Assembly: GCA_029263015.1 (NCBI GenBank) | Contig: JAJCYI010000032.1 | Span: 1 to 40,204 of the forward strand | Direction of reading: 5' to 3' | Length of the DNA: 40,204 nt | Origin: Saprospiraceae bacterium | Lineage (GTDB): Bacteria > Bacteroidota > Bacteroidia > Chitinophagales > Saprospiraceae | Position numbers and translations under genes: made by a program | Part shown: one piece after another, positions 11,427 through 23,266 of the stretch | Layout of the letters: each line of letters starts with the position of its first letter | Position numbering within the stretch: position 1 is the first letter of the stretch | The notes under the pieces: generated by a model | The model's input: only the letters and a program-made list of their open reading frames with translations | Told to the model about the DNA's origin: nothing | The model's database searches: none

Positions 11427-11450
11427 AGTGATTAGTGAATTAGTGATTAG
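11427..11450. repeat. Short array of AGTGATTAG-type repeats over the Uma2 stop codon
   Basis: Three units of 7-8 bp (AGTGATT, AGTGAATT, AGTGATT) occur in a row. The stop codon of the Uma2 gene (TAA, 11440-11442 on the minus strand) and its last three codons (Pro-Asn-His) lie in or next to the array. The same unit occurs at the end of the TIR-like gene at 15931-15954. Confidence 0.65.
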
Positions 11451-12024
11451 GCGTGTCAAGTTTTATCCTTTTGTAAATAGTTGCCAAAGAGAGTTTGATG
11501 TCAAATTCATTTAATTCAATAACATCTTCTGGCTCTGTAAAATATTGGGTTTCCCAATTGCCAGAATCGCTGCGGCTGTGCAAGACCACCCACATTTCAT
11601 CCTGCGATACGATCAGGTAGTATTTCATGGAAGCTATCTTCAGGTACTCCCGCCTTTTCTTCACACGGTCGCGATAGCCTGATTTGTCCGAGGCTACTTC
11701 GGCCATCAAAATTGGTTGTTTGACAATGTATTTGTCCTCATCGTATTCAACCGGAGCAACAACTATATCAGGATAACGATAAACCCCAAGGGGGATGACT
11801 TCTGTCTTTACATTATGATCGAAAACATTAAACCCTTTTTCATACAGAGGGTCGTCTAACTGTTTTTTGATATTACCAACTATAATGTTGGCACGTTTGG
11901 CTTCTCCAGGAAATGGGATGAGGTTTCCATAATAAAATTCATGGCGGACATCGGAGCGTTTTTCCAACTCCAGCCATTCTTCTACGGTGTATTTCTTTTC
12001 TATTGTTTCTATCGGTGCAGTCAT
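11440..12024 (-). CDS. Uma2-family (DUF820) PD-(D/E)xK nuclease-like protein
   Basis: The 194-residue protein has the Uma2/DUF820 layout: an N-terminal 'YTVEEWLELEK...RHEFYYGNLIP' segment, then the core strand YRYPDIVV (Asp86) and PILMAEVASDKSGYRDRVKK (Glu109), then a Tyr-rich 'YLKIASMKYYLIV' helix-strand pair. These match the PD-(D/E)xK nuclease fold, with Asp86 and Glu109 as likely metal ligands. The biological role of this large family is not known; members are often scattered near mobile DNA. The last codons come from a short repeat array. It is followed closely by the two-TM protein on the same strand. Confidence 0.85.
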   Translation of the reverse strand: MTAPIETIEKKYTVEEWLELEKRSDVRHEFYYGNLIPFPGEAKRANIIVGNIKKQLDDPLYEKGFNVFDHNVKTEVIPLGVYRYPDIVVAPVEYDEDKYIVKQPILMAEVASDKSGYRDRVKKRREYLKIASMKYYLIVSQDEMWVVLHSRSDSGNWETQYFTEPEDVIELNEFDIKLSLATIYKRIKLDTPNH

Positions 12025-12088
12025 TAAGATGGTCTTTTATTTTGACAAATATAAAGGAAATGAAAGAATTGCTTCATTGCTGTTGACC

Positions 12089-12135
12089 ATGAAACCATGG
12101 AACCGTGAAACATGGAACAATGAAGCCATGACACC
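12089..12135. repeat. Array of ATGGAACC-type octamers abutting the mutS2 stop
   Basis: Six degenerate units of 7-9 bp follow one another (ATGAAACC, ATGGAACC, GTGAAAC, ATGGAAC, AATGAAGCC, ATGACACC). The array ends 2 bp from the mutS2 stop codon (TAA, 12138-12140 on the minus strand). Its unit is unrelated to those at the other four gene ends, but period and placement are alike. Confidence 0.65.
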
Positions 12136-12137
12136 AT

Positions 12138-14639
12138 TTAAATCTCCACAATCGTCACCCCATCCCCACCTTCTTTGTTAGCAGGATGATAAATTCGTTT
12201 CACTTCGCCGTATTCCCTGATTTTTTCACGCACGACGTTGCGGAGGGCGCCGCTGCCTTTCCCGTGTACGATCTGGAGGTTGTTGGCACTTGAGAGCAAC
12301 GCCCGGTCGAGGAAGGCTTCAATGATCTGGAGCGCATCGGTCATGGTCATGCCCCGGATGTCGAGTTTGGAATCGAAATTGGCACCATTGCTCACCGTAT
12401 CCGTTTTGATGCTGGTGGTGGAGGGTAGCGGTTCATTGGCAGGAATGAGGTCGCGTATATGGACGGTCATGCGTATATGCCCCATTTCTACAATGGCCTT
12501 TTTCCGGTCCATGCTAACGACCGTGCCCGTGGCTGAACCAGAACGCATTTTCACAAAATCGCCCTCTTGGATAGGGCCGTTGCCTCCGGCTGCATTTTGT
12601 TTCGACACAGGCGAATTCGGAAGAGGGACTTCATAAACAGCATCGTGTAAAGTAGAAACGGTCTCCTCCAGTTCCTTTCGTTCCTCCTTAACTTCCGCTG
12701 CGAGCCTTTTCGCTTTTTCAAGGTTTTGGGATTCCCGGATTTCCTGGATCACCCGTTGCAGTTCTTTGTTGTCCCGTGCGGTATCTTGAAGTGTTGCTTG
12801 TTTTGACGCCAGTTTTTGTTTTTTGAGGCGGTATTCAAGATCGCCTTGCAGTTCATCGTAAATCTTAATGAGGCGCTTGAGCTGTTTTTCCTTATCCATC
12901 ACGGAACTCAGCTTTTCTTCAACTTCCAGTTTTTCACGTTGCAAGTCGATCAGCAGTTCGTCCACGGCAATCTCGCTTTTCCCAGTCCGTTTTCGGGCGT
13001 AGCCGATCACCTTTTTGCCCAGGCCACTCTTCTGCGCTATTTCAAAAGCATACGAACTACCAGGCCTCCCAACTTTGAACATATAAGTCGGAGAAAGGTG
13101 CTCCTTGTCGAACAACATAGAACCGTTCACGATGCCTCTATTTTTGAAAGCGAACATTTTGAGGTTGGAATAATGGGTTGTAATGACACCAAAAACCTTC
13201 TTATCATTCAGCTCTTTTAAAATTGCTTCCGCAATGGCACCGCCCATTTTGGGATCGGTCCCTGAGCCAAATTCATCAATCAGGATTAGTGAGTCCTTAT
13301 CCGCTTTTTCCAGGAAAGTCCGCATATTGGCCAACCGGCTAGAGTAGGTCGAAAGGTCATCTTCGATAGATTGTTGGTCGCCGATGTCGGCGAATATTTT
13401 TTTGAAGACCCCCATCTCCGAAATCTCGTCCATCGGCACCAACATGCCCGACTGCATCATTAATTGCAGCAGCCCCACCGATTTCATCAAAATGGATTTG
13501 CCCCCTGCATTCGGCCCACTCAATACGACTATGCGGTTGTCGCCGAGCAGCGTCAGGTCGAATGGCACCACTTCTTTTCCTTCTTTTTTATTTTTTAAAT
13601 ACAAAAGCGGGTGCTTGGCCATTTGAATGCCAAAATGAGGAATGCCACCCCTAACCCCGAAAGGGGAGTTACCTTCCTCTTTTTGGAGGGCAGTACTGCC
13701 AGTTCGGCCAGCAGTATTTTTCCCTTCATCTCCTCCTTCCTTTTTTAATCGTGGAATGTGAGCGTTCATTTGAGAGGCCAACCGCGCTTTCGCATACACC
13801 ATATCAAAGCGCACCAGCAATTGCAACCAAGTTTCAATTTGGCCGATGTACGGTCGAAAAGTAGCACTCAGTTCTTTAAGGATGCGCCAGATCTCCCGGC
13901 GTTCTTCCTGATGTAAATCGAAAATATCGTTGTTGATATTGATAACGGCTTCCGGCTCAATGAAAGCTGTTCGGCCTGTCGCGCTCTCGTCGTGGATGAT
14001 GCCCCGTATTTTACGTTTATGCTCTGCGGGAACGCTGAAAACCCGGCGGCCATTCCGTATAGATTCCACGTTATCGGACAGCCAGCCTTTATCGCGGTAC
14101 TGCTGGATGAGAATGCGGAACACCTTGTCCATGTCGCGTTGCCGGTTGATGACCTGGCTACGGATTTTTGCCAGCATCGGCGAGGCATTCGGGCGGATAT
14201 TCCCTTCTTCGTCAAATACTTTCTGGATTGTTTTTGAAAGTTCTGGGTCGTAATCTACTGGGCGGATGATGTCGAACAGGTGGGGATAAATCTTTTTTCG
14301 GTCTTCGTCAAAAAATTGAAAGATATCGCCCGTTATCAGCAGAACATTATTGATTCGGCGCCAGGCATCTTCCGGCAGAACATAGTCAATAATGGCAAGC
14401 AGTTTCAAGTCTTCAGACAGGTCTTGATAAGTGGAGAGAGGAAAATGGTCGTTCTGTTCAATGGTGATCTTGTACTCCCAAACCTCGTTAAGTTGTCGCT
14501 CGATGGTAGCAACATCTGTCATCACAGGCATCTCTCGAACTCCTTTTTTTCCTAAATCGCCATAACATTCCTTTTCCAGCAGGATAAGGATTTTATCAAA
14601 TTCGAGTTTTTCGTACAAGTCTTTAGGTTCCAGTTGCAT
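12138..14639 (-). CDS. mutS2: MutS2: MutS-type ATPase with C-terminal Smr nuclease domain
   Basis: MutS2 binds branched DNA and collided ribosomes and acts in recombination control or ribosome rescue, not mismatch repair. The 833-residue protein lacks the MutS mismatch-recognition domain. Core and clamp regions occupy about 1-300. The ATPase follows with Walker A GPNAGGKS at 375-382, Walker B-type LILIDEFGSGTDP and the downstream ITTHY. A long coiled coil spans about 540-650. The Smr domain ends the protein (LDIRGMTMTDAL, IVHGKGSGALR). Residues ~301-332 are a foreign Gly/Thr-rich insertion just before the ATPase (listed separately). An ATG at 14675 would add 12 residues, but it sits inside a leader hairpin, so ATG 14639 is preferred. 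It is monocistronic, or the first gene of a run with Uma2. Confidence 0.93.
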   Translation of the reverse strand: MQLEPKDLYEKLEFDKILILLEKECYGDLGKKGVREMPVMTDVATIERQLNEVWEYKITIEQNDHFPLSTYQDLSEDLKLLAIIDYVLPEDAWRRINNVLLITGDIFQFFDEDRKKIYPHLFDIIRPVDYDPELSKTIQKVFDEEGNIRPNASPMLAKIRSQVINRQRDMDKVFRILIQQYRDKGWLSDNVESIRNGRRVFSVPAEHKRKIRGIIHDESATGRTAFIEPEAVININNDIFDLHQEERREIWRILKELSATFRPYIGQIETWLQLLVRFDMVYAKARLASQMNAHIPRLKKEGGDEGKNTAGRTGSTALQKEEGNSPFGVRGGIPHFGIQMAKHPLLYLKNKKEGKEVVPFDLTLLGDNRIVVLSGPNAGGKSILMKSVGLLQLMMQSGMLVPMDEISEMGVFKKIFADIGDQQSIEDDLSTYSSRLANMRTFLEKADKDSLILIDEFGSGTDPKMGGAIAEAILKELNDKKVFGVITTHYSNLKMFAFKNRGIVNGSMLFDKEHLSPTYMFKVGRPGSSYAFEIAQKSGLGKKVIGYARKRTGKSEIAVDELLIDLQREKLEVEEKLSSVMDKEKQLKRLIKIYDELQGDLEYRLKKQKLASKQATLQDTARDNKELQRVIQEIRESQNLEKAKRLAAEVKEERKELEETVSTLHDAVYEVPLPNSPVSKQNAAGGNGPIQEGDFVKMRSGSATGTVVSMDRKKAIVEMGHIRMTVHIRDLIPANEPLPSTTSIKTDTVSNGANFDSKLDIRGMTMTDALQIIEAFLDRALLSSANNLQIVHGKGSGALRNVVREKIREYGEVKRIYHPANKEGGDGVTIVEI
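13644..13736. repeat. Palindromic repeat element inserted in frame in mutS2
   Basis: About 93 bp encode a stretch absent from typical MutS2 proteins (roughly GGDEGKNTAGRTGSTALQKE then EGNSPFGVRGG), between IPRLKKE and IPHFGIQMAKHPLLYL. On the + strand it contains CCCCTAACCCCGAAAGGGG, which can form a CCCC-GAAA-GGGG hairpin, and the perfect 12-bp palindrome GGCAGTACTGCC. A third arm pair follows (CAGTTCGGCCAGCAGTA). A + strand CTTCCT(C)TTTTT-like run lies at both ends. The length is a multiple of three, so the ORF stays open. Confidence 0.65.
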
Positions 14640-14656
14640 GTCGCTTAATTTCTCTA

Positions 14657-14713
14657 AGTGCCGAGCAATAAACAAGATGGGTCAATCGGCGCTGTTATTT
14701 GTTGCTCGGCACT
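14657..14713 (-). promoter_or_regulatory. Leader hairpin of mutS2
   Basis: A perfect 12-bp inverted repeat, AGTGCCGAGCAA at 14657-14668 and TTGCTCGGCACT at 14702-14713, surrounds a 33-bp loop. In the mutS2 transcript it would form near the 5' end, 17 nt before ATG 14639. The alternative ATG 14675 lies inside it. Confidence 0.6.
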
Positions 14714-14729
14714 ATTCTGCACATTTTTG

Positions 14730-14737
14730 CAAAAGTA
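14730..14737 (-). promoter_or_regulatory. Putative -7 promoter element of mutS2
   Basis: The minus strand reads TACTTTTG followed by C, a full match to the Bacteroidota -7 motif TAnnTTTG. A start of transcription about 10 nt on would place the leader hairpin at the very 5' end. A clear -33 TTTG at normal spacing was not seen; the nearest one lies only 12 bp upstream. Confidence 0.45.
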
Positions 14738-14888
14738 CGGGGATGGGAACAAAAGGTGAGGGAGTAAGTTCTTCCTATGTGAAATATTTCAAAATAAAAA
14801 GGAGTTAGCCTTGACCTAATGGTAAGAAATTACGAATTTTGAACGATCCTTGATTCAGCAACGTTTATTATAGGCCAGATTTGTAAGA

Positions 14889-15006
14889 GAATTGGAAAAA
14901 ATAATCTACACATTCTGACTTGTCTTTTTTTCTTTTGAGAAATTTAAAAAATCCTCAAAAGAAAAAATTACTGCGTCACCATGCATACCTTATTATTTTC
15001 CAATTC
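14889..15006. repeat. Nested inverted repeats upstream of the DUF2188/TIR-like pair
   Basis: The 348-bp gap between mutS2 and the DUF2188 gene holds two nested dyads. The outer arms are GAATTGGAAAAAATAAT (14889-14905) and ATTATTTTCCAATTC (14992-15006), pairing 15 bp with a bulge. The inner arms are TTTTTTCTTTTGAG (14926-14939) and CTCAAAAGAAAAAA (14954-14967), 14 bp perfect with a 14-bp loop. It could be a small palindromic mobile element, an operator, or a two-way terminator. The remaining bases of the gap (14738-14888) show nothing I can name. Confidence 0.55.
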
Positions 15007-15023
15007 CCTAAAAAGAAAACTAT

Positions 15024-15275
15024 ATGCCGGAAGTAAAAAGAATCCATGTCATTAAAAGAAAAAATGGCTGGGCCGTTAGAAAACACGGGGCGCAAAGAGC
15101 CACGAAGATTTACAAATTAAAGGAAGATGCCATTAACAATGCCATCACCTACCGAAAACTGGGATTCACCGTAGTTGTCCATAAAAAAGATGCTTCCGTT
15201 GAAAAATGGATCGAACCCCTCACCCTTCCCAATAATGGGCAAGTCCGCAGAATGCTCCACAAAGTTGCCAGCTAA
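15024..15275 (+). CDS. DUF2188 protein
   Basis: An 83-residue basic protein with the DUF2188 pattern: 'IHVIKRKNGWAVRKHGAQRATKIYKLKEDAINNAI' followed by 'VVVHKKDASVEKWIEPL'. Members are small, single-domain, of unknown function, often next to restriction, transposon or stress genes, and thought to adopt a compact alpha/beta fold. Residues 70-83 (NNGQVRRMLHKVAS) are an extra tail. No signal peptide or TM segment is present, so it is cytoplasmic. It lies 49 bp ahead of the TIR-like gene on the same strand and behind nested inverted repeats, which suggests a two-gene unit. Confidence 0.8.
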   Translation: MPEVKRIHVIKRKNGWAVRKHGAQRATKIYKLKEDAINNAITYRKLGFTVVVHKKDASVEKWIEPLTLPNNGQVRRMLHKVAS

Positions 15276-15324
15276 TAAATCCTAATTCTTTTCCCTACTT
15301 CAAAACCCTTTCCCAAGGCCAGTT

Positions 15325-15933
15325 ATGGACAATTTTGACAAAAATGTTTTCATCAATTGTCCTTTCGATGATGCCTACCTTCCGTTGTTAAAAGCCCTTT
15401 TATTTACCATTAAATACTGTGGGTTCACTCCGCGCATAGCGCTTGAACGCTTCGATTCTGGAGAAGTGAGGTTGGTAAAGATCAAGCAACTGATCGAAGC
15501 TTCCATATACAGCATTCACGATTTGAGCCGAATCAAAGCTACCGCAATAGGTGAATACTTTAGGCTCAACATGCCCCTGGAACTGGGTATTGATATCGGA
15601 TGCCGAGAATACCACGGTTTGGAAAAATACCAGAATAAGAAAATATTGATTTTAGAGTCTGAAAGGTTTGGCATTCAAAAAGCCCTTTCGGACATGTCAT
15701 TTGCAGATTGTAAATGCCATTTGGGTGAGGATGTACAAATGGTTTCCTGTGTCAGGGAATGGTTTGCAGAGTTGGGCATCAAGCAACTCAGGTCTCCTTC
15801 TTATATTTGGGACAAATACAATGACTTCATATCGGAAGTTTACAGGAAAAAGAAGCAAGAAGGGTTCAATCCCTCAGAAATTGAAAACATCCCTATTCCT
15901 GAATTCATGGATTGGATCGATGATAAGGTTTAG
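15325..15933 (+). CDS. Conserved protein with TIR / nucleoside deoxyribosyltransferase-like fold
   Basis: A 202-residue protein of a widespread unnamed family. Its hallmarks are VFINCPFDDAY (8-18), SIHDLSR (63-69) and FRLNMPLELGIDIGC (79-93). The arrangement of an N-terminal strand with a PFD turn, a mid 'hDLSR' strand end and a later 'ELG' helix parallels nucleoside 2-deoxyribosyltransferases and TIR-like NAD-cleaving domains ('ADLT...NPNVxxELGxA'). By analogy Glu86 would be the catalytic Glu; this is inference, not shown for this family. It has no TM or signal sequence. Its stop TAG (15931-15933) begins a heptad repeat array. It probably forms an operon with the DUF2188 gene. A defence effector or nucleotide-metabolism enzyme is possible. 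Confidence 0.7.
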   Translation: MDNFDKNVFINCPFDDAYLPLLKALLFTIKYCGFTPRIALERFDSGEVRLVKIKQLIEASIYSIHDLSRIKATAIGEYFRLNMPLELGIDIGCREYHGLEKYQNKKILILESERFGIQKALSDMSFADCKCHLGEDVQMVSCVREWFAELGIKQLRSPSYIWDKYNDFISEVYRKKKQEGFNPSEIENIPIPEFMDWIDDKV

Positions 15934-15954
15934 TGATTAGTGATTAGTGATTAG
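15931..15954. repeat. TGATTAG heptad array starting at the TIR-like gene's stop codon
   Basis: Three perfect TGATTAG units follow the TAG stop directly (15934-15954), then degenerate TTTAATAG/TAATTAG. A run of TGATTAG carries stop codons in all three + frames. The same motif covers the Uma2 stop at 11427-11450. Confidence 0.65.
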
Positions 15955-16080
15955 TTTAATAGTAATTAGTATGCCAAATACCTGACAACCAATTGTTTGC
16001 ACAATAATAAAATAGTCAATCAATTGCGGTAATGTCCCAAATATCCAATTTCAAACATCTATTAACGAAACACCAACACA

Positions 16081-16641
16081 ATGAAAAAAGCACTGTTTAT
16101 CATCTCCTCATTTTTGATTTTTTCTTGCCAACCCCCTACCCCCGAATCCATTGAGGTTGCAAAAGCCCAAACGCAATCTGACTACGACCCAGAGGCCACC
16201 TTAATGGCCCTTGGTATCAAACTTCCTGATGCTGCAACGCCCGTCGCCAATTATGTCAACGCTGTCCGAACTGGCAACCTTCTTTTCCTTGCTGGCAAAG
16301 GCCCGAACAAACCAGGCGGCGGTTATGTCACTGGCAAAGTCGGACAAGACCTGACCATCGAAGAAGGCTACGAAGCTGCCCAGCTGGCTGCCATATCCCA
16401 ACTTGCTGTGCTAAAAGCCGAACTCGGTAATTTGAACAAAGTAAAACGCATCGTGAAAGTGACAGGCATGGTCAATTGTACTTCTGATTTCACCAACCAG
16501 CCCGAAGTCATCAACGGATTTTCTGATTTGATGGTCAAAGTTTTCGGAGACCGTGGCAAACACGCCCGGGCTGCTGTCGGAATGGGTTCCCTCCCGAGGA
16601 ATATCGCTGTGGAGATTGAGGCGGTTGTGGAGGTGGAGTGA
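16081..16641 (+). CDS. RidA/YjgF-like lipoprotein
   Basis: A 186-residue protein whose C-terminal ~145 residues belong to the RidA (YjgF/YER057c/UK114) family, trimeric enamine/imine deaminases that clear reactive 2-aminoacrylate. The N-terminus is a lipoprotein signal, MKKALFIISSFLIFSC, with lipobox Cys16, followed by a Pro-rich linker. Recognisable RidA stretches are NYVNAVRTGNLLFLAGKGP, GYEAAQLAAISQLAVL, VKRIVKVTGMVNC and ARAAVGMGSLPRNIAVEIEAVVEV. The Arg that binds the carboxylate in active RidA proteins sits in the 'ARxAVxxxxLPxxxxVEI' block and seems kept. An exported, membrane-anchored RidA is unusual, since these proteins normally act in the cytoplasm. It is monocistronic and converges on the SPOR-like gene. 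Confidence 0.87.
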   Translation: MKKALFIISSFLIFSCQPPTPESIEVAKAQTQSDYDPEATLMALGIKLPDAATPVANYVNAVRTGNLLFLAGKGPNKPGGGYVTGKVGQDLTIEEGYEAAQLAAISQLAVLKAELGNLNKVKRIVKVTGMVNCTSDFTNQPEVINGFSDLMVKVFGDRGKHARAAVGMGSLPRNIAVEIEAVVEVE

Positions 16642-16659
16642 AATGGGTATTGAACTACC

Positions 16660-16691
16660 AAAAAAAGGCCCGCCCCAAAAAAGGGACGAGC
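16660..16691 (-). terminator. Rho-independent terminator of the SPOR-like gene
   Basis: On the minus strand GCTCGTCCC pairs with GGGGCGGGC (nine pairs, two of them G-T) around a T6 loop, followed by C and seven Ts. It lies 60 bp downstream of the stop at 16752. Confidence 0.75.
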
Positions 16692-16751
16692 TCCATCGTC
16701 ATTGGTCTCAAGAAAAGAAAACTAAATATATTGGCGCAAAATTAAGCAGGG

Positions 16752-17177
16752 TCAATTCGCCCTGACGATCTTGCGGATGCCGTCTTTATAGTGTACCAAC
16801 TTGGCCTCTTTTGCCTTTGGTACAATGATGGTGTTCAGAAAATGGAGAGCTGATTCGTCGCTAGAGAACCTGCCCAAGATGAGGTAAGAATACCCTCCCC
16901 GTTCCAACTTGTCGTAATGGACTTTGCCGAACTGGCGGAATACTGGATTCGCCCTGTCCAATGGATAGGTGGATGATGCGACTTCTATCGCATAACCTAT
17001 ATAAGATACAGGTAATTTTTTGTGGAAACGATATGGACTTGGCGTCTCGGGCAACTTGGAATCAGCAGCCCGGTAGGCCACCTCACCTTGATAGGACAAA
17101 GATGATTGGGAATATGCAGTAGCAGCAAAAAACACGGTCGCCAATAACAGCGCCAAAGGGATACGAAGGGTGTTCAC
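16752..17177 (-). CDS. Secreted SPOR-like domain protein
   Basis: A 141-residue exported protein starting at GTG 17177. The signal peptide is about 1-23 (NTLRIPLALLLATVFFAATAYSQ). The C-terminal 75 residues look like a SPOR domain: 'FGKVHYDKLERGGYSYLILG', then FSSDESALHFLNTIIVPKAK and AKLVHYKDGIRK, i.e. a beta-alpha-beta unit with the usual 'Y.v.iG.F.s...A..fl' pattern. SPOR domains bind denuded septal peptidoglycan, but in Bacteroidota similar short forms occur with no known partner. It has its own terminator and no operon partners. Confidence 0.65.
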   Translation of the reverse strand: MNTLRIPLALLLATVFFAATAYSQSSLSYQGEVAYRAADSKLPETPSPYRFHKKLPVSYIGYAIEVASSTYPLDRANPVFRQFGKVHYDKLERGGYSYLILGRFSSDESALHFLNTIIVPKAKEAKLVHYKDGIRKIVRAN

Positions 17178-17289
17178 GGGTATTATATTTAATAAAATAT
17201 TAATATAAAATTATGCCAAATACTCCACCTAATAACCAAACCCATTGACTGGGAAGCATTAGGTTTCCAAGTGTGTGTTCATTTAAGGT

Positions 17290-17445
17290 TTACCCTTTCC
17301 GTGCTTGATTTTTGGATATAAACTTCTTCCCTGAAACAGAAGAAGTGAATGAATCGCCTGCCCCGTTTGCTTCTTGAGGGCCAACGGTTAATAGAAGTAG
17401 CATGATCACAAAGGCCACGAGGCCAGGGATTATAAAGTGTTCCAT
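17290..17445 (-). CDS. 51-residue single-TM peptide
   Basis: ATG 17445 opens a 51-codon frame (MEHFIIPGLVAFVIMLLLLT..., ending NQARKG) with a stop at 17290-17292. Residues 4-21 form one hydrophobic segment, followed by a polar, Ser-rich and then basic tail, as in small inner-membrane peptides. It is flanked on both sides by very AT-rich bases. A TATATTTG promoter-like motif lies about 95 bp upstream on the same strand. No family was recognised. It is supported by composition, isolation in a 560-bp gap and the promoter match; a chance ORF cannot be excluded. Confidence 0.4.
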   Translation of the reverse strand: MEHFIIPGLVAFVIMLLLLTVGPQEANGAGDSFTSSVSGKKFISKNQARKG

Positions 17446-17540
17446 GTGTAATGATTTGGTACGTTAAAAAATACCGATTGAGTTTTAGGTGCTTTGGGTC
17501 GTAACGGTTGTAGAGGGAAGCGTATTTATCAAATGAAGGG

Positions 17541-17548
17541 CAAATATA
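17541..17548 (-). promoter_or_regulatory. Putative -7 element for the 51-residue peptide
   Basis: The minus strand reads TATATTTG, matching TAnnTTTG. A possible TTG lies 17 bp upstream (17566-17568). Spacing is short of the usual 19-21, so confidence is low. Confidence 0.3.
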
Positions 17549-17622
17549 TTAAAATAATATTAATACAATAAATTTTGTTTTAAATTCTTTGAACCAGCCA
17601 AAAACTATTTTCCGTTCTCTGG

Positions 17623-17654
17623 TTGTTAATTTTTTTTGAATTACATTATCTTTG
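17623..17654 (+). promoter_or_regulatory. Promoter of tRNA-Leu
   Basis: TTG at 17623-17625 and TATCTTTG at 17647-17654 (then CA) match the Bacteroidota -33 and -7 elements with a 21-bp spacer. Transcription would start near 17662, about 87 nt before the mature tRNA. Confidence 0.55.
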
Positions 17655-17748
17655 CAGCCGCTTTTGAAGAAAAGCATTTTTATCATAACACAATGAAAAG
17701 GCGATACCACTTTTTACTTTATATTTTTACCTTTTTACTTGTATACCT

Positions 17749-17834
17749 ACCCACGTGGCGGAATTGGTAGACGCGCCAGGTTGAGGGCCTGGTGTCCTTC
17801 ATTGGACGTGCTGGTTCAACTCCAGTCGTGGGTA
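17749..17834 (+). tRNA. tRNA-Leu, anticodon GAG
   Basis: The 86-nt gene folds into a class II tRNA. The acceptor stem pairs ACCCACG with CGTGGGT, with discriminator A at 17834. The D-arm has GGCGGAATTGGTAGACGC. The anticodon stem-loop is CCAGG-TTGAGGG-CCTGG, giving GAG, which reads CTC/CTT Leu codons. A long variable arm (TGTCCTTCATTGGACGT) and the T-arm CTGGTTCAACTCCAG follow. The CCA end is not encoded. A promoter lies upstream and a strong terminator directly downstream, so it is a single-gene unit. Confidence 0.95.
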
Positions 17835-17841
17835 CTTTTCG

Positions 17842-17876
17842 GCCCTGCAAATCTCATTGGTTTGCAGGGCTTTTTT
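17842..17876 (+). terminator. Rho-independent terminator after tRNA-Leu
   Basis: GCCCTGCAAA (17842-17851) and TTTGCAGGGC (17861-17870) form a perfect 10-bp stem with a 9-nt loop, followed by six Ts, only 7 bp after the tRNA. Confidence 0.9.
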
Positions 17877-17956
17877 ATTTCACATCCTTCCTCTTCCCTT
17901 TATTTTGTAGCTTTATTGTTGCATTCATTTGCTAAAAACCAAACCTCCCAACTTCA

Positions 17957-18907
17957 ATGTTCAAACATCTCTCACTAATTGCCATCTTATTGTTGACTGC
18001 TTTTTTAGGCCATGGCCAATCCACCATTATTTTAAAACCAGGACCAGAATCAGGAATAGATGCCTCCGTCTGCAATTCCACGACATGGAACACAGGCGAC
18101 CCTTTCAATATCAGGAATTTTGGATGGATGATATACCAGAGGAACGAATCGTGGACAGCAAATGCCAACGGTTCTCCAGAGCATGATTGGCGGAGTTTGA
18201 TCTTGTTTGAAGACTTGGATACGCTGGGAGCTTTGGATGTCCTATCGGCCACGTTGAAATTGTACTATGCCCCTGATTTCCCATACTCGAATGGCGGCAG
18301 GTATGGGTTTAACCAAACTGAAATATTTAGGATATCGGAAGAATGGGAAGAAATGGAAGTGACCTGGAACACCCAGCCAAATTTTGATGCGAGCAACTCA
18401 ATAATTATCCCCACCAACAATAATTTCGAGACCATTTCGATAGGTGTTACAGACTGGGCAATTGAGATGGCGGCAAACCCTATTACCAATCATGGCTTTA
18501 TTTTGATCCCCTCGGACGACGCTCCCTACCGTTCCATGGATTTTGCTTCGAGCGACCACGAAGATGAAACGCTTTGGCCAGAACTCATCATTGAATACGA
18601 ACCTCTGCTACCGCCCGAACCCACCGATACCTGTGTCTTTGAATTTCCAAATATATTTACACCTGACGGCAATGGTGTCAATGACACTTTCAATGTAGTA
18701 TCCAACTGCACAACTGGTTTTTCGGTAAACATCCTGATATACGACCGTTGGGGAAACAAGGCCTTTTCATCCAGCGGAGCGCCCAAAGGCTGGGACGGCA
18801 AGATCAATGGGAAAAGCGCAATGGCAGGTATTTATATTTTCAAGGCCAGTATCGAGGCCGGGGATGACCACCATATATTTGCGGGGAATATTACGCTGCT
18901 AAGGTAG
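17957..18907 (+). CDS. DNRLRE-domain surface protein with type B (CHU_C) sorting tail
   Basis: A 316-residue exported protein. The signal peptide is 1-21 (ending GHGQ). Residues ~22-205 form a DNRLRE-type beta-sandwich (disaggregatase-related): 'GIDASVCNSTTWNTGDP', 'SLILFEDLDTLGALDVLSA', 'ATLKLYYAP', 'EMEVTWNTQPNFD', 'VTDWAIEMAANPITNHGFIL'. Such domains probably bind cell-surface or extracellular polysaccharide or protein. Residues ~222-316 are a CHU_C domain (FPNIFTPDGNGVNDTF, YDRWGNKAF, GWDGKINGK, FAGNITLLR) that directs export by the type IX system. It is followed after 28 bp by the thioredoxin gene, so the two are probably co-transcribed. Confidence 0.88.
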   Translation: MFKHLSLIAILLLTAFLGHGQSTIILKPGPESGIDASVCNSTTWNTGDPFNIRNFGWMIYQRNESWTANANGSPEHDWRSLILFEDLDTLGALDVLSATLKLYYAPDFPYSNGGRYGFNQTEIFRISEEWEEMEVTWNTQPNFDASNSIIIPTNNNFETISIGVTDWAIEMAANPITNHGFILIPSDDAPYRSMDFASSDHEDETLWPELIIEYEPLLPPEPTDTCVFEFPNIFTPDGNGVNDTFNVVSNCTTGFSVNILIYDRWGNKAFSSSGAPKGWDGKINGKSAMAGIYIFKASIEAGDDHHIFAGNITLLR

Positions 18908-18935
18908 GAGCGAATTCAATAAAATAAACGACTAC

Positions 18936-19301
18936 ATGTTTTTCAAGAAAAAGAAAGAACGCATTAATGCCATCGAAATCAACGAGCTGAATTTTGAGGA
19001 ACTCGTCATCAATTCTGACATCCCCGTTTTACTCGATTTTTGGGCAGCCTGGTGTGGCCCTTGCAAGATCATGGGGCCAATTATGGATGAACTGGCCGAG
19101 GATTACAAAGACAAGCCAATCCGTATTGGCAAGGTAAACGTTGAAGCCAATCGGCAACTATCGGCCCGCTTCCAAGTGCAGAGCATACCGACCTTTGTTT
19201 TTTTCAATGAAGGAAAGCCCGTGAGCAGGGGGACTGGTTTGGTGCCCAAATACGACTTGGCGGAAGTGATCGAACAGTACCTGCCAGATACGAGAGCCTG
19301 A
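18936..19301 (+). CDS. trxA: Thioredoxin
   Basis: A 121-residue thioredoxin-fold disulfide reductase. The active site is WCGPC at residues 39-43, with the preceding 'VLLDFWAAWCGPCKIMGP' and the cis-Pro loop QSIPTFVFF. There is no signal peptide, so it acts in the cytoplasm, reducing ribonucleotide reductase, peroxiredoxins and similar partners with thioredoxin reductase. The N-terminal extension MFFKKKKERINAIEIN is somewhat long and basic. Its position 28 bp behind a surface-protein gene is probably incidental. A weak hairpin at 19333-19351 may end the transcript. Confidence 0.93.
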   Translation: MFFKKKKERINAIEINELNFEELVINSDIPVLLDFWAAWCGPCKIMGPIMDELAEDYKDKPIRIGKVNVEANRQLSARFQVQSIPTFVFFNEGKPVSRGTGLVPKYDLAEVIEQYLPDTRA

Positions 19302-19332
19302 AGCCATGTATATTTTATCAGATTGAGAATTA

Positions 19333-19351
19333 GACCTTTTTTGAGAAGGTC
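19333..19351 (+). terminator. Weak hairpin after the thioredoxin gene
   Basis: GACCTT and AAGGTC form a 6-bp stem around a 7-nt loop, followed by CATTTTG. It lies 31 bp after the trxA stop. It is short and its T-run is poor. Confidence 0.3.
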
Positions 19352-19461
19352 ATTTTGTATTCCCCAATTCGTGAGGGAAAACCAAAGAGTAAGACCATCC
19401 AATCCTGATTATTATCATTTTTCCAAATGGATTTTCCTTCATTTTTCAAAAAACAAATCCC

Positions 19462-19469
19462 TACCTTTG
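19462..19469 (+). promoter_or_regulatory. Putative -7 promoter element upstream of pckA
   Basis: TACCTTTG followed by CGCCC matches TAnnTTTG. Transcription from here would give a pckA leader of about 185 nt. No clear -33 motif is seen. The rest of the 359-bp gap holds a weak hairpin (19333-19351) and a dyad near 19591. Confidence 0.4.
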
Positions 19470-19590
19470 CGCCCTAAATTTGAAATGAGCGGAACTGGCA
19501 ATTTTCACAAATTTGAATTGGATTGCTGGCCGCAGAATTCATCTCTATGCCTACCTTAATTTTTTCGGCAAATCATTATTCACGACCTTA

Positions 19591-19608
19591 ACCTAACTAG
19601 TTGGTTAG
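19591..19608 (+). promoter_or_regulatory. Dyad upstream of pckA, possible operator
   Basis: ACCTAACTAGTTGGTTAG is an imperfect palindrome around AACTAGTT, of the size bound by dimeric TetR-type repressors. It lies 53 bp before the pckA start. Two CAATATTTT direct repeats follow it. Confidence 0.3.
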
Positions 19609-19660
19609 CAATATTTTGCAAGACCAATATTTTATTTATTTATAAAACTGAAATCAAATT

Positions 19661-21241
19661 ATGAAGACTTTGAACCAAAGCAATCAATTAATCAATTTGC
19701 AGCGTGCGGCGGTTATTGAAGATACCATCAGCCTTGGGCAAGGTCAATTGACCAGCACTGGGGCATTGATGATCAAAACAGGTAAATTCACTGGGCGGGC
19801 GCCAAAAGACCGCTACATCGTCAAGGACTCCATCACTGAAAACACCATTGACTGGGGATCTGTCAATATCCCCATTGACCAGGAAAGCTATTCCAAACTT
19901 TATAAGAAAGTCATCGATTACGCCAATTCGACAGAGCGGGTCTATGCACGGGATGCCTATGCTTGTGCCAACCCAAAGTATAGACTGAATGTGCGGGTTT
20001 TCACTGAATTCCCCTGGCAGAGCCTTTTTGTTTACAATATGTTCTTGCGCCCTACCAAGAATGAACAGGAAAATTTCACCCCTGATTGGAGGGTTTATTG
20101 TTTCCCGACCGTGGTTGCCGATCCTGCCATCCACAACACCCGCCAGGAAAATTTTGCCATTATCAATTTTACAGAAAAAGCCATCATCATTGGCGGTACA
20201 GCTTATACTGGTGAGATTAAAAAGGGTATTTTTTCTGTATTGAATTACTTGCTTCCGCAAGAATGGAATGTGTTGTCGATGCACTGTTCTGCAAATGTTG
20301 GCCAAAAAGGGGACACCGCTCTTTTCTTTGGCCTTTCTGGAACTGGGAAAACAACTCTTTCCAACGACCCCGACCGCAGGTTGATTGGTGACGATGAGCA
20401 TGGTTGGTCCAATTCAAGTGTGTTCAATTTCGAGGGCGGGTGCTACGCTAAAACGATAGATCTTTCTCCATCAAAAGAGCCACAGATTTACAGTGCCATC
20501 AAATTCGGGGCATTGCTGGAAAACACAGCCTTTCTTCCTGACACCTGCACGGTAGATTACGCCGATGTTAGCATCACTGAAAACACCAGGGTCAGCTACC
20601 CCATTTACCACATCGACAATATCATTTATAATTCGCGGGGCGACCTGCCGCAAAATATCTTCTTCCTGACTTGCGATTCGTTTGGTGTGCTGCCCCCTAT
20701 TTCGAAGCTAACACCCGAACAGGCCATGTATCATTTCATCAGTGGATACACTGCCAAGATTGCGGGCACCGAGGAAGGCATCACTGAGCCACAGCCCAAC
20801 TTCTCAGCTTGTTTTGGTTCTCCGTTTTTACCCTTGCACGCAACTGCTTATGCTGAACTTTTAGGTGAAAAAATCAAAAAAGGCACCCAGAAAGGTGATG
20901 GGAAGATCAATGTTTGGATGATAAATACTGGTTGGTCAGGCGGAAGTTATGGAGAAGGCGAACGAACAGAACTTGCTTTCACCAGGGCGATGATCAAAGC
21001 AGCCCTTACCCACGAACTTGACAATGTGGAATACCGCACACATCCTATTTTTGGACTGGTCATGCCAACCACATGCCCAGATGTGCCCAATGCCATCCTC
21101 AACCCAAGGGATACTTGGCGCAATGAGGAAGAATACGACAAAGTGGCCACCGACCTCGCCAAACGTTTTATCAAAAATTTTGAACAATACGCTGACAAGG
21201 CATCGCCTGCAATCATCGCTGCTGGGCCGAAACTTCCTTAG
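19661..21241 (+). CDS. pckA: Phosphoenolpyruvate carboxykinase (ATP)
   Basis: Converts oxaloacetate and ATP to phosphoenolpyruvate, ADP and CO2, the first committed step of gluconeogenesis (or the reverse during fermentation). Its 526 residues are close to the usual ~530. The kinase-1a P-loop is GLSGTGKTT at 224-232, followed by NDPDRRLIGDDEHGWS, which holds the metal-binding Asp pair. The substrate-binding 'TGKFTGRAPKDRYIV' lies near 38-52 and 'YPIYHIDNI' near 315. The N-terminus looks complete (MKTLNQSNQ). The stop codon runs straight into an inverted octamer-repeat arm, and the thiolase follows 114 bp downstream on the same strand. Confidence 0.96.
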   Translation: MKTLNQSNQLINLQRAAVIEDTISLGQGQLTSTGALMIKTGKFTGRAPKDRYIVKDSITENTIDWGSVNIPIDQESYSKLYKKVIDYANSTERVYARDAYACANPKYRLNVRVFTEFPWQSLFVYNMFLRPTKNEQENFTPDWRVYCFPTVVADPAIHNTRQENFAIINFTEKAIIIGGTAYTGEIKKGIFSVLNYLLPQEWNVLSMHCSANVGQKGDTALFFGLSGTGKTTLSNDPDRRLIGDDEHGWSNSSVFNFEGGCYAKTIDLSPSKEPQIYSAIKFGALLENTAFLPDTCTVDYADVSITENTRVSYPIYHIDNIIYNSRGDLPQNIFFLTCDSFGVLPPISKLTPEQAMYHFISGYTAKIAGTEEGITEPQPNFSACFGSPFLPLHATAYAELLGEKIKKGTQKGDGKINVWMINTGWSGGSYGEGERTELAFTRAMIKAALTHELDNVEYRTHPIFGLVMPTTCPDVPNAILNPRDTWRNEEEYDKVATDLAKRFIKNFEQYADKASPAIIAAGPKLP

Positions 21242-21347
21242 GAGTTTTGAATTCGAGAGTTTCTGAGTTATTGAGTAAGTCCCTCTCTCTTAACTCAGAA
21301 ACTCACGAACTCAGAAACTCAGAAACTCAAAAACTCACGAACTCAAA
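21242..21347. repeat. Octamer-repeat arms between pckA and the thiolase gene
   Basis: Starting with the base after the pckA stop, an arm with 8-bp period (GAGTTTTG, AATTCGAG, AGTTTCTG, AGTTATTG) is followed by a TCCCTCTCTCT spacer. Seven perfect-phase units of AACTCAnn follow at 21292-21347 (AACTCAGA, AACTCACG, AACTCAGA, AACTCAGA, AACTCAAA, AACTCACG, AACTCAAA). The arms are inverted to one another; GAGTTTCTGAGTTA (21257-21270) and TAACTCAGAAACTC (21291-21304) pair perfectly. The array ends 8 bp before the thiolase ATG. Confidence 0.75.
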
Positions 21348-21355
21348 ACTTCTCC

Positions 21356-22570
21356 ATGAAACAAGCATTCATCATTGATGGTGTGAGGACACCCTTCGGT
21401 AACTTTTGCGGCACACTCTCTACTGTCCGCACCGACGATCTGGGAGCAATTCCCATTAAAGCACTGGTCGAAAAATTTCCCAATATCCCTAAAGATGCCT
21501 ACGAGGATGTAATTTTTGGCTGCGCCAACCAAGCAGGGGAAGACAACCGCAACGTGGCGCGCATGTGCCTTTTGTTGGCAGGGTTGCCATGGTCAGTGCC
21601 TGGCGAGACAGTGAACAGGTTGTGCGCTTCAGGCATGTCAGCCATCGTGCAGGCAAACAGGGCCATCAAAACAGGCGACGGAGAACTTTTCATTTCTGGT
21701 GGCGTGGAGAACATGACCCGCGGGCCGTGGGTCATTTCAAAGGTTTCAAAACCATTTGGTCGGGACGCCCAGATGCACGATAGCAGTTTTGGGTGGCGTT
21801 TTGTCAATAAAAAAATGAAAGACCTTTACGGTACAGATGGAATGGGCATGACCGCTGAGAACCTCGCCAAAATGTACCAGATCAACCGGGAAGACCAGGA
21901 CAAATTCGCTTATTGGTCACAAATGAAAGCTGCAAAAGCACAGGCATCCGGCAGGTTGGCTGAAGAAATTGTGCCTGTCACTATTCCACAGCGGAAAGGC
22001 GACCCCGTCATTTTTGAGAAGGATGAATTTATAAAACCCAATAGCTCGTTGGAGGTTTTAGCAAAACTGCGGTCGGCATTTAAAAAAAAGGAAGACGGCG
22101 GAACGGTTACTGCTGGCAATGCTTCGGGCCTCAATGATGGCGCGGCGGCAGTGCTGGTCGCCTCTGAAGGTGCCGTCCAAAAATACGATCTGAAACCCCT
22201 CGCTCGCATTGTCTCCTCTGCCGTGGTGGGCGTTGAACCACGCATCATGGGCATTGGCCCAGTTGGTGCTTCCAAAAAAGCACTGGCAAAGGCCAACCTT
22301 ACCCTTGACGACATGGGCATAATCGAACTCAATGAAGCATTTGCGGCCCAGGGCCTTGCCTGTACCCGTGAACTCGGCCTGGCCGACGACGATCCCCGCA
22401 TCAACCCGAACGGCGGTGCGATTGCGATCGGCCATCCGCTGGGGGTATCAGGCGCCCGCATTATGCATACAGCTGCATTAGAGCTTCACAAGAAGAATGA
22501 AAAATTTGCTTTGGTGACGATGTGCGTGGGAGTTGGGCAAGGATATGCGACAATTATTGAGAAGGTGTGA
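21356..22570 (+). CDS. Thiolase, closest to the 3-oxoadipyl-CoA/acetyl-CoA acyltransferase type
   Basis: A 404-residue thiolase that splits a 3-oxoacyl-CoA with CoA, or condenses two acyl-CoAs. The nucleophile is Cys90 (VNRLCASGMSAI). The catalytic His lies in NGGAIAIGHPLGVSGARI and the second Cys in CVGVGQG. Stretches such as GWRFVNKKMKDLYGTDGMGM and the long 'MTRGPWVISK' loop resemble PcaF/PaaJ-type 3-oxoadipyl-CoA thiolases more than PhaA, but no other aromatic-degradation gene is nearby, so a fatty-acid or amino-acid role is equally possible. It shares direction with pckA, yet both are set in octamer-repeat arrays, so co-transcription is uncertain. An 8-bp gap between the array and ATG carries no strong ribosome-binding site. 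Confidence 0.92.
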   Translation: MKQAFIIDGVRTPFGNFCGTLSTVRTDDLGAIPIKALVEKFPNIPKDAYEDVIFGCANQAGEDNRNVARMCLLLAGLPWSVPGETVNRLCASGMSAIVQANRAIKTGDGELFISGGVENMTRGPWVISKVSKPFGRDAQMHDSSFGWRFVNKKMKDLYGTDGMGMTAENLAKMYQINREDQDKFAYWSQMKAAKAQASGRLAEEIVPVTIPQRKGDPVIFEKDEFIKPNSSLEVLAKLRSAFKKKEDGGTVTAGNASGLNDGAAAVLVASEGAVQKYDLKPLARIVSSAVVGVEPRIMGIGPVGASKKALAKANLTLDDMGIIELNEAFAAQGLACTRELGLADDDPRINPNGGAIAIGHPLGVSGARIMHTAALELHKKNEKFALVTMCVGVGQGYATIIEKV

Positions 22571-22680
22571 GTGTTTGAGTTTGGGGATTATCAGCCGGGG
22601 AGCTGTGAATATGAAAATTAAAAGAGTGAGTCTTACTCAACAACTCAAATACTCAGAAACTCAAAGCACTCAGAAACTAA
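22571..22680. repeat. Octamer-repeat arms after the thiolase gene
   Basis: The base after the thiolase stop begins GTGTTTGAGTTTGG, the inverted orientation. After about 50 bp of non-repeat sequence, direct units follow at 22634-22680 (TACTCAAC, AACTCAAA, TACTCAGA, AACTCAAA, GCACTCAGAAACT). This is the same AACTCAnn family and layout as in the pckA-thiolase gap. Confidence 0.65.
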
Positions 22681-22704
22681 AAAAGGGCAGCCACATGGCC
22701 ACCC
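22679..22704 (-). terminator. Rho-independent terminator of the Lys-rich protein gene
   Basis: On the minus strand GGGTGGCC pairs with GGCTGCCC (two G-T pairs) around ATGT and is followed by six Ts. It lies 33 bp beyond the stop at 22738. Confidence 0.65.
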
Positions 22705-22737: not shown

Positions 22738-23112
22738 TTATTGCTTTTGGGTTGGTGTGCCGACTGCCTGTTTTTGTGCTTTATTGTGGATTTTGAGACC
22801 CTTTTTTGAAAATTTCCCTTGTTTTTTGTTGTCGCTTTTTTGAGGATATCTTCCATCTTTGTGGGGAGTTGCTTTATGCTTTTCTGGACTTTGGCCTTTC
22901 CGTTTTACCCGCTCTTTTTTATAGACCTTTTTTTCTAATAAACGGTCGTCTGTTTTTGTAGGCGTAAGGTGGGCCGCTTCCTTTGCTATTTTCCTTTCTT
23001 TCATTTCTTCGTTGTTTCCAATTGCTTCCGATTTTTTGGTTTGCTGCGCAAAACTGATTTGGGAAACTAAGAGAAGTGTCAATAGCGGGAGTAACATTTT
23101 TACCTTTTTCAT
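22738..23112 (-). CDS. Secreted Lys-rich low-complexity protein
   Basis: A 124-residue exported protein of unknown function. The signal peptide is residues 1-23 (MKKVKMLLPLLTLLLVSQIS, then a probable FAQ cut). The mature part is very basic and polar (ERKIAKEAAHLTPTKTDDRL, KKVYKKERVKRKGQSPEKHK, SDNKKQGKFSKKGLKIHNKA) with no predicted core, so it is probably disordered. ATG 23112 is chosen over an in-frame ATG at 23148 because it opens the signal peptide. Such proteins occur in many Bacteroidota and might bind nucleic acid or acidic polysaccharide in the periplasm; that is inference. It is monocistronic with its own terminator. Confidence 0.7.
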   Translation of the reverse strand: MKKVKMLLPLLTLLLVSQISFAQQTKKSEAIGNNEEMKERKIAKEAAHLTPTKTDDRLLEKKVYKKERVKRKGQSPEKHKATPHKDGRYPQKSDNKKQGKFSKKGLKIHNKAQKQAVGTPTQKQ

Positions 23113-23266
23113 CTGAATGATATTTGGTTTATTAATAAGAATGTACACGGTTAAGACAGCTCAAATCGAGAAATGCCACTTAATGCCTTGTTAAAGATTT
23201 ACGGTAAAAACAAAAGGAGTGTTAAGAACATATTGACTATTTTGCGGCCTTTCAAAATCAACATTT

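Follow-up and report, generated by a model that had tools for sequence, protein, structure and literature searches.

Short tandem arrays with a period of 7–8 bp lie at or close to the stop codons of five genes in a 40,204-nt stretch of a draft Saprospiraceae genome. The stretch, referred to here as the window, is one contig (JAJCYI010000032.1; C32) of a 6.95-Mb assembly in 245 contigs (GCA_029263015.1; labelled G000). In G000 and its congeners, such arrays are in excess in intergenic DNA, repeat mostly with period 7 or 8, are built from many different units, hug gene ends, follow a strand polarity, commonly have an inverted partner arm, and recur at equivalent stops when sister species are compared, often with other units. 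We interpret them as periodic arms (often the pair, in some cases a single arm) of imperfect intergenic hairpins that would have grown by slippage or foldback synthesis and whose orientation would be kept by selection, a reading to which we assign a probability of about one half.

The frequency of the arrays was estimated from 60 random contigs of G000 other than C32, using at most the first 20 kb of each (765,567 bp in total, a sample in which short contigs weigh more). An autocorrelation scan for periods of 5–12 found 85 arrays at a score threshold of 12, adopted after 14, where a third-order Markov control gave 4; the corresponding numbers at threshold 14 were 67 and 0. Tandem copies of a 5–11 nt unit, by which long simple-sequence repeats are recognized, are therefore well above chance, and at the density of the sample the whole genome would hold ~770 arrays. 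Period 7 (61 arrays) and period 8 (18 arrays) make up 79 of the 85, and only 16 fall in called coding sequence. Six congeners (958,887 bp) yielded 106 arrays against 5 in their controls, and 100,000 bp of Escherichia coli K-12 yielded none. Among 80 named pckA loci, mostly from Bacteroidota (688,482 bp), 19 contain an array of period 5–12, intergenic and coding arrays counted alike, and 11 of these have period 7 or 8, including loci of Chitinophagaceae and Sphingobacterium; the three nearest Saprospiraceae pckA loci have no array. Hidden periodicity in array-free gaps is nearly nil (0.288 at lag 7, compared with 0.275 after shuffling).

Sequence diversity among the arrays is high. The 59 G000 arrays located in gaps of up to 800 bp have 43 distinct consensus units and the 58 such arrays of the congeners have 48, with just 6 units shared. 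The first-pass annotation of the window had argued that unlike units with equal period and placement point to a process and not to a common sequence, and these counts bear it out, as does the frequent difference in unit between sister species at one and the same stop. A single repeat family spread through the genome was considered and rejected, AACTCAnn being one unit among dozens; a search for three consecutive copies of it, tolerating one mismatch, returned 118 overlapping matches in G000 and between 0 and 5 per genome in the 13 congeners. Quadruplexes are unlikely as a general cause, as 2 of the 117 arrays contain the four runs of G3 (or of C3) that make up a G3 quadruplex pattern.

For tests of placement, we excluded arrays in coding sequence (16 of 85 in G000 and 31 of 106 in the congeners) and a further 10 and 17, respectively, that lay at contig ends or in gaps of more than 800 bp. 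The gene calls came from a simple in-house script and have approximate starts; the distance cuts (2, 5, 10, 20 and 40 nt), the score threshold and the partner-score cut of 13 were set while viewing outputs. Of the G000 arrays, 44 are in tandem gaps, 11 in convergent gaps (5.5 expected by length) and 4 in divergent gaps (14.8 expected); of the congener arrays, 5 are in convergent and 8 in divergent gaps, compared with 6.3 and 14.8 expected. A bias toward stop codons, as proposed for the window, was found by the distance scan in G000, with arrays overlapping or within 2 nt of 21 of 66 stop ends (null 10.8, standard deviation 2.4) and of 4 of 52 starts (null 6.3). It did not extend to the six congeners, where neither 10 of 55 stop ends within 2 nt (null 8.4) nor 15 within 10 nt (null 13.0) is significant, and the clear excess is instead within 10 nt of starts (27 of 61; null 12.2). 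The suggestion that the arrays supply extra stops is not supported: stop triplets in all three frames occur in 23 of 44 stop-adjoining arrays and in 24.4 when the columns of the units are permuted.

The stop excess of G000 and the start excess of the congeners are reconciled by strand composition. Reading along tandem genes, we call an array G-type if it has more G than C and C-type in the reverse case. Within the tandem gaps of the seven genomes, 26 of 35 G-type arrays lie at most 10 nt from a stop (null 7.9) and 27 of 53 C-type arrays at most 10 nt before a start (null 11.7), and the opposite combinations are depleted (4 C-type arrays near stops, null 11.6; 4 G-type arrays near starts, null 7.9). 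Expressed as a rule that G-type arrays occupy the left and C-type arrays the right part of a gap, the polarity is obeyed by 87 of 107 arrays over all gap types (65/81 tandem, 11/14 convergent and 11/12 divergent), the 107 being the 117 arrays minus 10 that have equal G and C or lie near the middle of the gap. A rule of G after stops and C before starts is, by symmetry, identical to one of G on the left and C on the right edge of a gap, so that a cause acting on mRNA and one acting on DNA are inseparable here.

The two array types are in many cases the two sides of a stem. In G000, 19 of the 59 arrays have an inverted partner in their own gap that is better than those in 15 other gaps, where 3.7 would be expected. 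Among stems collected from array gaps of 40–300 bp (Watson–Crick inverted repeat score of at least 11), G outnumbers C in the 5' arm of all 36 from tandem gaps (15/15 in G000 and 21/21 in the congeners) and of 5 of 7 from convergent gaps. Array gaps fold beyond their shuffled versions, with a median z of -2.81 in 32 gaps. A clear partner arm is missing in 48 of the 107 arrays, and 38 of those 48 also obey the polarity rule. As many arrays are hairpin arms, selection for 3'-end structure, which had also been suggested for the window, is possible.

The geometry of these stems invites a reading as a selected mRNA device, in which the stem links a stop to the next start and a terminating ribosome would open the 5' arm and free that start (coupling), or in which the stem would protect the 3' end. 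Across 16 tandem array gaps whose stems have at least 15 pairs, the median distance is 1.5 nt between the stop and the beginning of the 5' arm, and 17.5 nt between the end of the 3' arm and the start; a T-tract follows just 1 of the 36 tandem stems, so that they are not standard intrinsic terminators; and the rsmH stop described below has stems of different sequence in five species (G004, G007, G013, G001 and G010). We nevertheless consider such a device improbable, because arrays also exist in convergent gaps, at the frequencies given above, and obey the rule in 11 of 14 cases where coupling is impossible, because partnerless arrays are common, and because two species (G002 and G012) are stemless at rsmH. 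A role in mRNA 3'-end stability or translational coupling of neighbours would fit the geometry and is unproven.

Recurrence was assessed at five genes: rsmH, panB, surE and dnaX, picked for their stop arrays in G000, and mutS2, which came from the original observation and whose G000 array is below our score threshold. Arrays starting at most 25 nt from the stop occur in 16 of 59 congener orthologues (5/13 for rsmH, 4/11 for panB, 1/12 for surE, 2/11 for dnaX and 4/12 for mutS2), compared with 27 of 614 baseline congener stops. The 16 orthologue hits were entered by hand. Because the congeners have common ancestry, and G001, G005 and G006 have rsmH arrays that resemble each other as if related, the Fisher P (7e-8) is a guide only. 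At the mutS2 stop, G009 has ~13 units of TGAGAGGGG beginning at the stop itself, G001 has TTTGAGGA, G002 has a GTTTAGAGA-type array and G007 a GATTTAA-type array. The idea that arrays themselves create the stops was considered and rejected; the C-termini of mutS2 and panB are conserved at the same stop.

The rsmH stop, which precedes ftsL, differs in form between species. It carries TGAGTTA units in G000, a GAAATTG-type hairpin in G004, an ATGATGA-type hairpin in G007, TTGAAAA-type arrays in G001, G005 and G006, and a degenerate stem in G013, with neither array nor stem at this stop in G002 and G012. The unlike stems of G004, G007, G013, G001 and G010 have fold z values of -2.2 to -6.4; for G000 and G004, in which the ftsL start escaped the script, the fold covers 150 nt in place of the gap. 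By eye, the last 10–15 nt before ftsL (GCAAGT...ATG) are common to most species, and the C-termini of rsmH are alike except for the last two to four residues. Arrays intrude into genes by 5–11 nt in rsmH (G000, G001, G005, G006 and G007), 22 nt in surE (G013) and 18 nt in dnaX (G002), and both rsmH and surE vary in their final residues, so an array can displace a stop by a few codons. The rsmH hairpin of G007 forms a 78-bp block ahead of a gap that can still be aligned with those of G008–G011, so a block can arise at a stop without erasing the old gap.

This block is also a point in favour of mobile hairpins, that is, elements inserted at gene ends by a Y1/RAYT-type single-strand transposase that recognizes one hairpin chirality. 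A fixed chirality could come from an enzyme of this type, as in the systems of repetitive extragenic palindromes (REPs), and Y1_Tnp domains are present in 12 of the 14 genomes of the genus, with 8 in G000. The arrays, by contrast, have no common sequence (43 units in 59 arrays), and no clean target-site duplication is visible at the G007 rsmH block. Spread driven by RAYT proteins appears less likely on the comparison of G001 and G005, which have 3 Y1 matches each at densities of 17.1 and 2.8 arrays per 100 kb, so that Y1 counts do not track array density in these two genomes. We therefore regard mobility as very unlikely. As a separate observation, the sequence AATAGCAAGTAAG located after the 78-bp block in the G007 rsmH–ftsL gap (L276) resembles both the last rsmH codons and the ftsL leader, and could possibly be an imperfect duplication made along with the block.

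Another explanation requires no function at all. Heptamers and octamers may slip in any non-coding DNA and be excluded from genes by the reading frame, with polarity and hairpins as by-products of the general base composition at gene edges. Mrazek's 2007 survey, as related in extracts of PMC4679880 and PMC4692102, found heptamers to be the commonest long simple repeats in most genomes and proposed slippage linked to a 7-nt polymerase footprint. The small share of G000 arrays in called coding sequence (16 of 85) agrees with this, as does a weak skew of the same sign in array-free tandem gaps (+0.09 after stops and -0.24 before starts). Uniform placement within the same gaps nevertheless fails to yield the observed hugging of gene ends, the polarity of the arrays (36 of 36 stems) far exceeds the background skew, and arrays recur at the same stops (16/59 compared with 27/614). 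Neutral simple-sequence repeats thus appear to us a rather unlikely explanation of the whole pattern.

Several results weigh against the interpretation as selected hairpin arms. The polarity rule is violated by 20 of 107 arrays, and the weak skew of array-free gaps means that part of the polarity may be background composition. Convincing stems are missing for three of the five window arrays, and the rsmH gap has a fold z below -2 in only 5 of 14 species. The order of units is not kept beyond chance: when arms were tested for being ordered inverted copies, none of 45 outdid its unit-permuted versions at 5 of 99, in a weak test with 8 of the 45 uninformative, so concerted copying of arms is not supported. 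Slippage, too, is something we infer, as is selection. Furthermore, the stem is not specific to arrays, given that array-free gaps fold well too (median z -1.84 in 210 gaps; -0.18 in divergent ones) and that their stems also lean G-first (129 compared with 32, and 9 equal). Stem-loops at gene borders thus form a broader class, of which the arrays represent the periodic extreme.

Under the hairpin-arm interpretation, arrays would be born and grow in non-coding DNA by polymerase slippage or foldback synthesis, and growth would halt at gene borders because a 7–8 bp step breaks the reading frame. Both arms of a stem would share one unit. The 5' arm, containing G and poor in C, would come to border the left gene, while the right gene would be bordered by the 3' arm, containing C and poor in G. 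Selection near gene ends may fix this G-arm-first orientation by favouring G-poor, openable sequence before starts and a pairing partner after stops. The outcome would be a gene-border stem-loop whose place and polarity outlive its letters.

In the window, Tandem Repeats Finder (minimum score 30) recovered all five arrays, and our periodicity score at threshold 14 caught two, the Uma2, mutS2 and thiolase arrays being weak. The first-pass annotation had placed all five at stop codons; the Uma2, mutS2 and ‘TIR-like’ arrays do touch their stops, while the pckA and thiolase arrays, which it had put at 21242 and 22571, begin 50 and 64 nt downstream, and it is an inverted near arm that stands at the stop instead. 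Directly at both of these stops lies a degenerate stretch of GAGTT type, inverted with respect to the AACTCAnn array further on and complementary to it. Between pckA and the thiolase gene, the G-type 5' arm (21242..21279, plus strand) starts at the pckA stop and the C-type 3' arm (21292–21350, plus strand) is an AACTCAnn array of 7.5 units that stops 5 nt short of the thiolase start (21356). A short G-type stretch at the thiolase stop (22571..22586, plus strand) is followed by a C-type AACTCAnn array (22635–22684, plus strand), beyond which lies a convergent open reading frame (ORF; 22738–23148). The weak period-7 Uma2 array (11427–11450; TGATTAG on the plus strand) straddles the minus-strand Uma2 stop (11440–11442), and the next minus-strand ORF starts 10 nt away (11416); read along the genes, the array is thus C-type and precedes a start. 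The mutS2 array (12086–12137), a degenerate period-8 array of the CATGGAAC type with near-equal G and C content, abuts the mutS2 stop (12138–12140). The fifth, a G-type TGATTAG array of period 7 and 3.7 copies (15930–15955, plus strand), overlaps the stop (15931–15933) of a 202-aa ORF, and no partner arm was seen for it. Fold z values of the gaps are -4.70 for pckA–thiolase, -1.76 for thiolase, -0.97 for mutS2, 0.20 for the TIR-like ORF and 0.25 for Uma2.

The genes concerned are a Uma2-family gene (11440..12024, minus strand; Pfam PF05685, E 3e-20), mutS2 (12138..14675, minus strand, start uncertain; Pfam MutS_V, Smr and MSSS), the 202-aa ORF termed ‘TIR-like’ by the first-pass annotation (15325..15933, plus strand), which has no Pfam match at E 0.001, the ATP-dependent phosphoenolpyruvate carboxykinase gene pckA (19661..21241, plus strand; Pfam PF01293) and the thiolase gene (21356..22570, plus strand; Pfam PF00108 and PF02803). 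The thiolase stop looks native because the C-terminal domain reaches residue 403 of 404. The closest named relatives of the pckA product are from Saprospiraceae metagenome genomes (72–77% identity), and a protein search found the window pckA in only 2 of the 14 genomes of the genus, G000 and G004. A search of the window against Rfam at gathering cut-offs returned only a tRNA gene (17749–17834, plus strand), with no known RNA family matching the arrays.

Other repeats were seen alongside the arrays. A near-identical palindrome, AAAGGTGACACC...GGTGTCACCTTTT, is found in at least three G000 gaps (near L131:14421, L177:16934 and L172:9229) among the 28 of 78 folded gaps listed, and represents a multi-copy, terminator-like or REP-like family distinct from the arrays. 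Hairpins or arrays of CTCTGTG / CACAGAG and of CTTTGCGTC-type 8-bp units lie near L182:4692 and L136:9834 in G000 and after panB in L293 (G006) and L290 (G003); in the G006 panB gap, the C-type arm comes first, contrary to the polarity rule. Several AGGGATG and CCCTACAC-type arrays lie at 2031–2264 of L205 in G012, where 5 arrays fall in 9.7 kb; these were excluded from the counts.

Some features of these arrays have precedents. An open-licence literature search found no report of many-unit arrays with G/C polarity, and searches with motif strings gave nothing relevant. The first-pass annotation had stated that no named element behaves in this way, which does not hold, as heptamer arrays with the same placement and polarity have been published for Xanthomonas (GGGAATC) and Nostoc (GGGGA(C/T)T) (PMC4692102, in the extract available). 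According to that extract, the arrays are 89–93% intergenic in two Xanthomonas genomes with 7–8% in divergent gaps, lie across the stop or 0–50 bp from it when on the coding strand and near starts when on the non-coding strand, form 70 and 75 inverted pairs in two Xanthomonas genomes, and keep their gene context in a sister species while varying in length. Period 7, the intergenic bias, the polarity of the G strand, the scarcity in divergent gaps and the inverted pairs are all shared with the arrays described here. In contrast, Xanthomonas and Nostoc each use one G-rich, quadruplex-capable unit per genome, whereas here there are many units that differ between sister species at one gene. What is new is that one genome has dozens of units, nearly all incapable of a G3 quadruplex; the placement and polarity were already known.

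Heptamers of TAACTGA, from Beggiatoaceae, Cyanobacteria and five Bacteroidetes, likewise form short arrays near gene ends, some of them over the upstream stop, and in the Guaymas genome they are mostly just before starts, with only one inverted pair (PMC4679880, in extract). Unlike our arrays they use one unit, and TAACTGA is absent among the listed consensus units of G000 and congener arrays. A stem-loop survey found concentration on the 3' side of genes (PMC1590033, in extract). Intrinsic (Rho-independent) terminators also have a stem right after the stop; our stems differ in having a T-tract in 1 of 36 and, in tandem gaps, in being able to extend to the next start. REPs are multi-copy families of 20–40 bp with a common sequence (PMC3733652, in extract), compared with the periodic arms and mostly private sequences found here.

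Earlier gene-end heptamers were described unit by unit and discussed in terms of the unit, as quadruplexes or as sites for a binding protein. A genus in which units vary freely while placement and polarity are fixed separates the rule from the sequence and weakens unit-specific explanations, and the stops of rsmH, panB, mutS2 and others in 11 to 13 sister species offer a natural experiment on what a gene–gene border needs. As a tentative generalization, which we judge doubtful at present, bacterial gene borders may carry a sequence-independent, G-arm-first stem-loop that is continually rebuilt from short slippage units, with its place, polarity and often its pairing kept while the letters change between species; the quadruplex heptamers of Xanthomonas and Nostoc would be special cases of this process.

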